Source: Thermophilibacter gallinarum (GTDB taxonomy: Bacteria; Actinomycetota; Coriobacteriia; Coriobacteriales; Atopobiaceae). From it: a DNA stretch of 64,000 bases. The DNA lies in the NCBI RefSeq assembly GCF_014982725.1, contig NZ_JADCJZ010000003.1, positions 310,001 to 374,000 of the forward strand. The letters are read 5' to 3'. Shown here in pieces: positions 7,362 through 19,565 of the stretch. The notes beneath the pieces are model-generated. The model saw only the letters and a program-made list of their open reading frames with translations. It was not told where the DNA came from and did no database searches. The stretch's first letter is position 1. Each line of letters opens with the position of its first letter. Made by a program: the position numbers and the translations under genes.

Positions 7362-8158
7362 GCGACATCCCTCCTCGAGACGAGCAGCGCGTCGACGGCG
7401 GTGACGGCAACGGTAAGCGGCAGGCAGACGATGAGCGCGCGAACGGCGCCGGACAGATGCGCGGCATTGTCCGACGAGAGCAGCGTGACGGCACCCTGAC
7501 CGACGATGCCAACGATCTGCGACGGCAGCCAGGGGGCGACGGCCGAGGAGAAGTCAAGGAAGTTGCCGCCGGCAAGGTAGCAGAGGGCGTCGATACCTAT
7601 GACGATGCCGCCCTCGAGCAGGCCTCCGGCAGCGAGAACGGCAAACACCGTGGTCACGCCCTCGTTGCGCGTGAGTTGGGCCACGAGCACCGTGAGCGCG
7701 ACGTAGGGCGCGGCGCAGAGCCATGTGCAGCCGAGCCAGGCCGCCACCTGCCACGCGGGCTCGAGGTCTGCCACCGGGACCCCGGAGACCGGCAGGGCGA
7801 GAAGCCCCACCACAAACACGAACACGATCAGGACGGCAGCGAGCAGCAACGAGAAGACGCACTTCTCAGCAAACCAGACCATGCGGGCGCGCTCACCAAG
7901 AGATGAGAGGATCGAGCGGGAAAACCCTATGTCGGTCCGGTCGCAGCACACAATGCTCGCCATGGCCGCAGCGAGCATCTGAACACCCGTCATGGCGAGC
8001 GCCGAGTTGGTGAGGTCGTCGTAGCGGACGGGTCCCATGCTGGTCCAACGCATCATGAGGGCTGGCGCAAGCAGGAGAAACGCCACGATGGCGACCACGC
8101 CCCAAATCCAGCGCGAGTGCAGGACGCGATAGGCGTCCGAGCGGAGCAGGGCGATCAT
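7358..8158 (-). CDS. ABC-2 type permease, immunity-transporter style, first copy
   Basis: A 266-residue membrane protein with six predicted TM segments and a cytoplasmic N-terminus MIALLRSDAYRVLHSRW. It is related to the next gene in length, N-terminal motif and overall hydropathy, and both end in SRRDVA/TRRDVA. It overlaps the ATPase stop by ATGA. It probably forms the channel together with its paralogue, energised by the ATPase at 8155-9090. Confidence 0.75.
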   Translation of the reverse strand: MIALLRSDAYRVLHSRWIWGVVAIVAFLLLAPALMMRWTSMGPVRYDDLTNSALAMTGVQMLAAAMASIVCCDRTDIGFSRSILSSLGERARMVWFAEKCVFSLLLAAVLIVFVFVVGLLALPVSGVPVADLEPAWQVAAWLGCTWLCAAPYVALTVLVAQLTRNEGVTTVFAVLAAGGLLEGGIVIGIDALCYLAGGNFLDFSSAVAPWLPSQIVGIVGQGAVTLLSSDNAAHLSGAVRALIVCLPLTVAVTAVDALLVSRRDVA

Positions 8159-9090
8159 CGGGCGCCACCGTCCTTCTCGCCGTCTGCGCCGCCCATGAGC
8201 TCGACGAAGTACTCCTCGATGTCGCGCTCCTGCTGGGCGAGCTCACGAACCTCGATGCCAGAGGAGAAGCATGCAGCGCTCACTTCCTCGAGCGCGACGC
8301 CCGTGACCACGAGCGCGCCGTCGGGCTCCACGCGGAAGGTCGCCTGCGGGAGCGCCTGCTCGAGGAGTGCCAGCCCACGCTCTGGCTGCGCCAGACGGAC
8401 GCGCACGGAACTGCCGCAGCGCTCGTGGAGCTCGGCGTCGGTGAACTCTGCCGCGAGATGGCCATCCGCAATCACGCCAAAGCGCGTGGCAACGCGGTCG
8501 AGCTGGTCCAACACATGGCTGGAGATCATGATCGTGACGCCGTGCTCATGGTTGAGGCGAACGAGCGCAAGACGCATGGCACGCGTGGCCTCGGGGTCGA
8601 GGCCGTTGAAGGGCTCGTCCAGGAGCAGCAGGTCGGGGCTGCCCACGAGCGCGAGCGCCAGGCCCAGGCGCTGCTTCATGCCGAGCGAGTAGGCCTTCAC
8701 GCGGCGGTGGTCGGTCGGGTCGAGGCCCACGAGGCCGAGCAGGTCGTCCGCAACCTGCCCCGCATGCGTCAGGCCGAGCGCGAGCGCCTTGGCGACGAGG
8801 TTGTCGCGCGCAGTGAGGCTGGCGAGCACGCCCGGGCTCTCGATGAGGGCGCCGATGCGGGAGAAGCCCTGCGGCGTGGCACCGCCGCGCTCCGGGTCGC
8901 CGAAGAGGACGACCTCACCCGCGGTGGGGCGTGCCAGGCCGCAGACCATCTTCATCGTGGTGGACTTGCCCGATCCGTTCTTGCCCACGAAGCCGTAGAT
9001 GTCGCCGGCGGCGACGGTCATGTCCAGGTTGTCCACGGCCAGCTTGCGACGGTAGCGCTTGGTGAGGCCGTGCGTCTCTATGACGTTCAC
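8155..9090 (-). CDS. ABC transporter ATPase, lantibiotic/bacitracin-immunity type
   Basis: A 311-residue ATPase. Walker A is GKNGSGKST near residues 37-45, the signature is YSLGMKQRLGLALAL, and Walker B is LLLLDEPFNGLDPEATR followed by the switch His in ISSHVL. The C-terminal about 90 residues, ending QERDIEEYFVELMGG, are typical of the BcrA/LanF group rather than of importers. Start is GTG 9090, six bases after AAAGGAG. It heads a four-gene translationally coupled unit (ATPase, two permeases, kinase). A 350-bp spacer holding array X separates it from the response-regulator gene upstream on the same strand. Confidence 0.85.
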   Translation of the reverse strand: MNVIETHGLTKRYRRKLAVDNLDMTVAAGDIYGFVGKNGSGKSTTMKMVCGLARPTAGEVVLFGDPERGGATPQGFSRIGALIESPGVLASLTARDNLVAKALALGLTHAGQVADDLLGLVGLDPTDHRRVKAYSLGMKQRLGLALALVGSPDLLLLDEPFNGLDPEATRAMRLALVRLNHEHGVTIMISSHVLDQLDRVATRFGVIADGHLAAEFTDAELHERCGSSVRVRLAQPERGLALLEQALPQATFRVEPDGALVVTGVALEEVSAACFSSGIEVRELAQQERDIEEYFVELMGGADGEKDGGAR

Positions 9091-9181: not shown

Positions 9182-9410
9182 TGCAAAACGGCCGTTCGTG
9201 ATGAATGATTCGACCGAGAGCTGCAAAACAGCCGCTCGTGATGAGAAAAACGTGACGCAATAGAGCCTCGCGCAGTTCTTCGCGGTTCATAATCCCAGTT
9301 GAGAGAAAAATAATTTCATCGAATGTGGTCATGAGACCGAGAAACATTCATCACGAGCGAGAGTTTTGCACGCAAGACGCCGCCTTTTCATCACGAGCAT
9401 GAGTTCTGCA
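9182..9410. repeat. Array X: four copies of a 24-bp motif in a 2+2 inverted layout
   Basis: Copies lie at 9182-9205 and 9222-9245 (plus) and 9347-9370 and 9387-9410 (minus). All share TGCARAAC, a variable 4-base stretch, then GYTCGTGATGA. The two copies on each arm are offset by 40 bp, and the inner copies are separated by 101 bp. A transcript could fold copy 1 on copy 4 and copy 2 on copy 3. The array fills most of the 350-bp spacer between the response regulator and the ATPase; apart from the 9135-9162 inverted repeat nothing else is seen in that spacer. Confidence 0.9.
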
Positions 9411-9440: not shown

Positions 9441-10127
9441 CTACGCAAGCTTGAAGCCCATGCCCCAGACCGTCTTGAGGTAGCCGTCGGTGCCTGTGGC
9501 ACGCAGCTTGCCGCGAATGTTGGAGACGTGCACGGCCACGGTGGAGTCGTCGCCCGCAAATGGCTCCCCCCACGCCAGCTCGAAGAGCTCGGACTTGGAG
9601 AAGACCTTGTTCGGACGTCGAACAAGCGCCTCGAGGATGTTGAACTCTATCTTGGTGAGCGGGACATCACGAGATCCGTCGACGGTGAGCGTACGGGCCT
9701 CCGTGTCCAGGGCCCACTGACGGTACCGCAGGACCCCCGAGTCCGCGGTCGCACCCGTACCTCGGTGGCGCAGCTGCACGGCGACGCGTGCCGCCAGCTC
9801 GTCGAGGTCGAAGGGCTTTACGAGGTAGTCGTCCGCGCCCAGGTCGAGAAGACCGATCTTGTCGGCAGCCGTCGCACGGGCGGAGATCACCACGACGGGC
9901 GTCGCGGCATCGCGCTCGCGAATGAGCCCCACGAGCTCCTCCCCCGTCACGCCGGGCAGCATGAGGTCGCTGATGACGAGGTCGAACGTCGTGCCCTTCT
10001 CGCCCAGCAGAAGGCGCGCCTCGGAGCCGGAGAACGCCTGCGTCACCGTGTGGCCGTCACGCGAGAGACGCGTCGCCACGACGTCATTGATCGCCGCGTC
10101 GTCCTCGATCACTAGAACCCGCGCCAT
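9441..10127 (-). CDS. OmpR-family response regulator
   Basis: A 228-residue regulator. The receiver domain has acidic residues in VIEDD, the phospho-accepting Asp54 in ISDLMLPG and the conserved Lys in DDYLVKPF. A winged-helix DNA-binding domain occupies residues 130-228 and ends with GYLKTVWGMGFKLA. The frame is open to 10163, but ATG 10127 is preferred because GGGGGAGG lies 4 bp upstream and the product then begins MARVLVIEDD. It is upstream of, and co-directional with, the transporter-kinase unit, and probably controls it once phosphorylated by that kinase. Confidence 0.92.
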   Translation of the reverse strand: MARVLVIEDDAAINDVVATRLSRDGHTVTQAFSGSEARLLLGEKGTTFDLVISDLMLPGVTGEELVGLIRERDAATPVVVISARATAADKIGLLDLGADDYLVKPFDLDELAARVAVQLRHRGTGATADSGVLRYRQWALDTEARTLTVDGSRDVPLTKIEFNILEALVRRPNKVFSKSELFELAWGEPFAGDDSTVAVHVSNIRGKLRATGTDGYLKTVWGMGFKLA

Positions 10128-10166
10128 GCTCCTCCCCCAAACGACACGAAGGACCGCCCCCACGTA

Positions 10167-19133: not shown

Positions 19134-19218
19134 GTCGGGCCCTCGGCGTTGGACGGCCCATGCCCCCCGCCCCGACACCTCGCGAATCGACCGCCGACGG
19201 GCGATGCCGAACGACGCG

Positions 19219-19453
19219 CTTAGGGTTTGGGGGTCGTTGTAGGCCAGCCTTCTCTTCTCGCTTAAGAATTCGAGGTTGTTGTACCTTCCGGACGCGACTT
19301 CGCGGACGAGAAGTTCCTGCGAAGAGAGACGACCTGCGGGTTTGTCCGAAGCGACACCGAATCCCACGCCGAAAGGCCGGGGTGAGCCTACAACTACCCC
19401 ACATTCGTAAGCGTGATGACCGAGCGGACCTACAACGACCCCCAAATCCTAAG
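19219..19453. repeat. Array Y: four copies of a 25-bp motif in a 2+2 inverted layout
   Basis: Copies lie at 19219-19243 and 19261-19285 (plus) and 19387-19411 and 19429-19453 (minus). They share CTTA at the left, GGT.GTTGTA at the right. The outer pair agrees at 24 of 25 positions, the inner pair at about 18. Copies on each arm are offset by 42 bp; the inner gap is 101 bp. The array occupies the 513-bp stretch 19134-19646 between the convergent ends of the lipid kinase and ptsI; the only other structure there is the hairpin at 19566-19619. Confidence 0.9.
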
Positions 19454-19565
19454 CAACCGCAGCACCCGCGCTCTCCAAGAGGGGGCTCAAGAGGGGTTCG
19501 ACTGAGGGAGAAGCACGTTCACCAGCATCGAGCCTGCGCGCAGGGGCTGCCGCACGCAGCAGAGA

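Follow-up and report, generated by a model that had tools for sequence, protein, structure and literature searches.

A dispersed inverted-repeat array in Atopobiaceae genomes and a linked family of putative Vsr/DUF559-like nucleases

Among the systems described to date, the one whose logic is closest to that of the locus presented here is the REPIN–RAYT system. In a REPtron, which consists of TnpA-REP and its cognate REP, a single-copy chromosomal gene lies beside its own repeat, and the cognate non-coding repeats are dispersed through the genome in intergenic positions (PMC8266576, PMC8049555). The sequence of these repeats is lineage-specific, the gene is not found on plasmids, and the RAYT protein is a Y1 HUH (IS200/IS605-type) transposase, which acts on single-stranded hairpins marked GTAG (PMC8266576, PMC8049555). 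The arrays that we describe here resemble this arrangement in that a gene adjoins its cognate repeat and further cognate copies are dispersed, and in that the gene is chromosomal, has a single strong ortholog in each of 26 genomes out of the 31 of the genus and has no match in plasmid or phage records. However, the protein is PD-(D/E)XK-like and not a Y1 HUH transposase, and the repeat is made up of four non-palindromic, asymmetric 23-bp units at an offset of 40 bp, without GTAG, such that membership of the REPIN–RAYT system fails on both the enzyme and the type of repeat.

The array in the window and its copies in related genomes

The array occupies positions 9182–9410 of the window, by which we mean the whole 64,000-nucleotide stretch that was analysed, and consists of two direct and two inverted 23-bp units, with an offset of 40 bp on each arm and a core of 103 bp. 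The pattern of these units, which we term class A, is TGCARAAS-NNN-CGY-TCGTGATGA. The features of the locus are as follows.

8155–9090, minus strand: ABC-transporter ATPase gene, its start 91 bp beyond the array (context)
9182–9204, plus strand: outer unit R1 (TGCAAAACGGCCGTTCGTGATGA), pattern match
9222–9244, plus strand: inner unit R2 (TGCAAAACAGCCGCTCGTGATGA), pattern match
9245–9347, no strand assigned: 103-bp core; the cores of related arrays are diverged and sometimes inverted in place
9294–9301, plus strand: oriented central motif CCCAGTTG, about 2 bp off the exact core centre and common to arrays of other unit classes
9348–9370, minus strand: inner unit R2' (TGCAAAACTCTCGCTCGTGATGA), pattern match
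9388–9410, minus strand: outer unit R1' (TGCAGAACTCATGCTCGTGATGA), pattern match
9441–10163, minus strand: response-regulator gene, its stop 30 bp from the array (context)

A first-pass annotation, made from the letters of the window, had described a 2+2 dyad with matched offsets and had called chance an unlikely origin, and both points were borne out. The units start at 9182, 9222, 9348 and 9388, the start-to-start distance is 40 bp on both arms and, with up to three mismatches allowed, the class A pattern has four matches in the window against 0.14 expected from dinucleotide shuffles. Nor is the region 9182–9410 a degraded gene.

The repeat is genome-wide. In the genome to which the window belongs (G000; 1.85 Mb, Atopobiaceae/Olsenella-like), a search with the pattern at no more than two mismatches returned 31 units, all of which lie within eight arrays of the 2+2 design, with no scattered single copies; one further unit, the 32nd, which is degenerate, fills the remaining place in the array at C2:70334, and a reversed-pattern control found no match in this genome. 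Across G000, its sister species G004 and two further species (G024 and G006), all 31 arrays are 2+2 with an offset of 40 or 41 bp. Most of the genomes that we compared are draft MAGs. Of the 23 positions of the unit 14 are nearly invariant and three, in its middle, are free, and the lengths of the 31 cores in these four species cluster at 92–95, 102–106 and 112 bp, in steps of approximately one helical turn. In a scan of GTDB species genomes, every record with the paired unit bore the name Atopobiaceae, Atopobium or Olsenella. A further class of unit, A' (TGCAAAACNNNCKCTCGTGTGATGA), fills the genomes G003, G007 and G015, whereas the class A genomes have essentially none of it. The viral contigs that we searched held no class A arrays; with no partner protein in phage records either, a viral origin was rejected.

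The arrays adjoin unrelated genes, called with a simple codon-usage script, and these neighbours have no evident common pathway; many arrays lie near the starts or ends of genes. The unrelated neighbours do not support a regulon of the adjacent two-component system, so that the suggestion of an operator serving the response regulator and transporter on either side could not be upheld, and the response-regulator gene is probably not part of the array system. Another early suggestion was that the array forms the stem of an interrupted hairpin RNA. Its arms are indeed inverted, and R2 and R2' show more agreement at their variable positions than do shuffled ones, but the direct repeats R1 and R2, which are unable to pair with each other, agree just as strongly (0.735 compared with 0.710), and there was no match in Rfam. 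As the variable positions of a unit thus fit the adjacent direct copy no less well than the inverted one, we ascribe the agreement to local homogenization and regard a hairpin RNA as scarcely credible.

Change and constancy of the arrays in place

Most of the arrays of G000, G004 and G024 occupy orthologous intergenic sites, and some positions are lineage-specific, with only two of the seven G006 sites being common to G004. When G000 was compared with G004, none of 392 conserved unit positions differed, against 10.9% of positions in the spacers, 10.7% of the free unit positions, about 9% in the cores and 5.8% in the flanks. Because the conserved unit positions are identical beside diverged spacers and cores, these data indicate that the units are held by selection, or renewed, while the cores drift. 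At two loci (L011/L050 and L013,L045/L055) the core has been inverted in place with its flanks unchanged, the inverted-core identity being 0.87 compared with 0.41 at one locus and 0.79 compared with 0.39 at the other. This recalls invertible promoters, in which inverted repeats also flank a segment seen in both orientations, but here inversion was seen at only two array loci and each end carries two units. In addition, the heptamer CCAGTTG lies no more than 3 bp from the exact centre in 12 of the 31 cores, counting orthologs separately, compared with a mean of 0.83 in shuffled sequences. A related heptamer is present in one more, and other cores carry variants of CAGGTA, as judged by eye. The same core centre is found in arrays with quite different units.

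The variation in position between species favours another proposal of the first-pass annotation, that of a small mobile element, but we found neither a clean empty site nor a classical transposase that goes with such ends. Orthologous sites without an array do exist; however, their junctions are too diverged for them to serve as clean empty sites, and no clean insertion with a target duplication was found among the sites compared. One form of this proposal is a miniature inverted-repeat element (MITE) of a classical DDE transposon, for example one with IS21, Mu or Tn7-like ends bearing two binding sites each. The ends of the array do read TG...CA, with two sites per end, and the differences in array position between species would also suit such an element. 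Nevertheless, all 31 class A arrays are short and without an autonomous copy, the units are conserved in place and show no decay, and none of the 30 rve loci examined, in a search that covered rve-type transposases, carries these ends. Moreover, G003, which holds A' arrays, has no rve-domain match, and G000 has only one, which is IS481-like in appearance. We therefore rejected a MITE of the IS21/Mu/Tn7 type as very improbable, the rve transposases being rare and unlinked. As a separate observation, an IS481-like element is situated at L151:838–2230 in G001, inside a CTTAAG sequence of a multi-unit array with a 41-bp offset, where its presence looks incidental.

A nuclease-like gene family with a dyad directly downstream

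The component that the earlier annotation did not foresee is a nuclease-like partner protein. In G004, a gene for a 351-amino-acid protein adjoins a class A array; a relative of this protein is beside such an array in G006, and another is beside an A' array in G007. The ortholog group of this partner comprises proteins of about 340 amino acids with a Vsr/DUF559-like PD-(D/E)XK domain, and each genome of the genus also holds several distant paralogs. All 26 of the strong orthologs have a 2+2 array directly 3' of the gene, with its start at a point between 8 bp ahead of the stop codon and 38 bp beyond it. The sequence of this gene-side unit is private to each species or species pair among the 26, and in the nine genomes checked it recurs in dispersed arrays: as class A in G004 and G006, as class A' in G003, G007 and G015, and as units of their own in G046, G018, G005 and G000.

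The paralogs follow the same arrangement. Nearly all of about 20 that were inspected by eye have an inverted-repeat element directly 3', which is private to the ortholog group; the class F unit lies behind one of them and a class E unit behind another, which is cut by a contig end. Dyads of paralogs that are not of the 2+2 type were judged by eye and by an inverted-repeat score, and among 74 family genes a score of at least 16 was reached downstream in 68% and upstream in 14%, compared with 7% downstream of control genes. Outside the genus, a strong downstream inverted repeat was present in only nine of 24 family genes. Of 150 Coriobacteriia genomes sampled, 67 have the family, and almost all of these belong to the order of the window. 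The more alike the proteins are, the more alike are their units (Mantel r 0.54, P≤0.0005), but the correlation for the N-terminal part of the protein is nearly as strong (r 0.47), so that much of it may be due to common descent. One paralog, in four species (L251, L259, L262 and L269), is followed by two near-identical palindromes built on ATCGAGTCTGTAC...GTACAGACTCGAT.

The residues that are invariant in the partner protein (SPxE, D247, E257-Y and H264) fit the active site of a Vsr/DUF559-type PD-(D/E)XK enzyme. Some members weakly match the Pfam families DUF559 and MTES_1575, the best with an E value of 1.4e-5, and an AlphaFold model with a pLDDT of 86 resembles viral homing, Vsr and DUF559 endonucleases with probabilities of up to about 0.99. 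A fold search of the PDB with this predicted structure returned nothing below an E value of 0.1, and its weak matches included TnsA and I-Bth0305I. Taken together, the residues, the profile matches and the predicted fold would place the protein in the Vsr/DUF559 branch of PD-(D/E)XK proteins as a putative nuclease. It shares a C-terminal fold and catalytic-type residues with Vsr/DUF559/MTES_1575 proteins and with Vsr-fold homing endonucleases such as I-Bth0305I, but differs from the former in that the members tabulated lie below the curated Pfam cut-offs or have no match. In the open-access literature we found nothing relevant on DUF559 together with inverted repeats or on repeats of Olsenella, Collinsella or Coriobacteriales, no description of Vsr/DUF559/MTES_1575 proteins that includes a link to a downstream dyad, and no assigned role for multi-copy Vsr/DUF559-like proteins of this kind.

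Such a protein might now act simply as a DNA-binding regulator or nucleoid organiser, which holds the four units together and influences the genes nearby with neither cutting nor copying, and it is in this wider form, detached from the adjacent two-component genes, that the operator array first suggested for the window survives. The strong constraint on the units in place, the stepping of core lengths by helical turns and the many arrays near gene starts or ends would all suit this explanation; the invariance of catalytic-type residues, the lack of an evident common pathway among neighbouring genes, the changes of array position between species and the inversion of cores argue against it, and we consider it unlikely.

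A divergent allele block and a proposed two-part system

The partner ortholog lies at the same locus in G004 and G000, between FprA-like and CNNM-like genes. Between the two genomes, identity stands at about 97% as far as codon 78, falls to about 55% over the remainder of the gene and its array, and is back at about 97% where the array ends on its outer side. Given these boundaries, the divergent block, a 1.06-kb cassette, comprises the C-terminal three quarters of the gene with its array and hardly anything more. The allele of G004 has class A units, whereas that of G000 has class G. A parallel is the hsdS-style exchange of specificity in Type I restriction, where close relatives likewise differ both in the DNA target and in the part of the protein that sets specificity, a part which in the present family is only likely to have that role; in the array system, however, the target array itself sits beside the gene and lies within the one divergent block.

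The class A units of the window are matched by the present alleles of G004 and G006, whereas G000 holds a class G allele at the same locus. Dispersed arrays of class G number about six or seven in G000 and also occur in G024; they are fewer in G004 and absent in G006, from which it follows that classes A and G coexist in G000 and G004. Mismatches in class A units amount to 9/336 in G024, which has a G-type allele, 3/560 in G004, 2/392 in G006 and 2/448 in G000; the G-type allele therefore goes with more mismatches in G024 but not in G000. As G000 has no class A allele and its class A units are nonetheless intact, one has to suppose that exchange of alleles, either recent or repeated, has kept them up.

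The linkage of gene and array, the matching dispersed arrays and the block difference make it likely, on sequence comparison, that the protein family recognises the arrays. Our preferred explanation, which we hold at a probability of roughly 0.6, is that the window array is a dispersed target of a two-part system, made up of a Vsr/DUF559-like PD-(D/E)XK protein and the multi-unit dyad that it recognises. One copy of the dyad would stand directly behind the stop codon of the gene and further copies, including the window array, in intergenic sites. Several protomers would bind the four bipartite units, for which 40 bp is about four helical turns, and would draw the core, with its length increments of about one turn, into a loop. 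A cut might then be made at or near the core, and its repair or rejoining could occasionally invert the core and rarely place a new copy at another site, much as has been proposed for RAYT proteins and REPINs. The helical phasing, the shared centre, the core inversion and the slow spread to new sites would all be accounted for by a nuclease at work on a looped complex of four sites, and we infer that the protein may bind, cleave and mobilise the arrays.

Beyond this, we see about even odds that the system represents an undescribed class of nuclease and repeat, in which the members of a Coriobacteriales PD-(D/E)XK multigene family would each have a private, fixed dyad that is copied or rearranged genome-wide, with specificity and dyad exchanged as one cassette, as an independently evolved analogue of REPIN–RAYT. 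If each protein does have a private multi-unit target, both beside its gene and scattered, the function of these proteins is directly testable, and the swapped allele pair of the sister species offers a ready test of specificity. It would in that case also be clear that a population of non-coding repeats can be maintained by an enzyme fold unrelated to RAYT.

The block difference between sister genomes would also suit genome conflict, in which the nuclease attacks incoming DNA or rival alleles, resident arrays serve as decoys, address labels or protection marks, and turnover occurs by exchange. The species-specific units and the presence of two array classes in one genome point the same way, but a search of a defence-system library with the protein gave only weak matches and no homolog was found in phage or plasmid records, and we regard this alternative as quite improbable.

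Further classes of array have their own units. A de novo search for 2+2 dyads in 374 kb of G000 gave ten strong arrays, whose units fall into four classes or more (A, E, F and G), compared with none to one marginal match in Markov-shuffled controls. Class E, of which there are 41 matching units across the G000 genome, provides the second array in the window.

19218–19454, no strand assigned: class E 2+2 array, unit GCTTANGNANTNNGGGTNGTTGYA, 42-bp offset
19218–19241 and 19260–19283, plus strand: class E units
19389–19412 and 19431–19454, minus strand: class E units

Other species hold arrays of other classes in the same place, both at the window locus and at metH. In the intergenic site before metH (L105, L112, L115, L119 and L120), the dyads of different species belong to unrelated classes, which gives the impression of a fixed position with a changing class of element, and the counterparts of the window locus elsewhere (L081, L088, L091 and L095) have different REP-like dyads behind the response-regulator gene, for example GTGACAATTAGGACAGG and AAAGGGGTCTGTCCCC. 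The sequence CGAGAAG/CTTCTCG recurs inside or beside many dyads of a second superclass (L250, L253, L257, L264, L265 and L266, and the core of the G000 array at C3:54439). In a genome from another family of the order, L021:2600–3023 is a tandem array with a 41-bp period (GCTTATTTGGGANTCC...AGTCAC) and inverted copies. Finally, the class F array at C3:119760 of G000 appears cut down to its last unit in G004 (L270), which suggests that the array was lost there by internal deletion.
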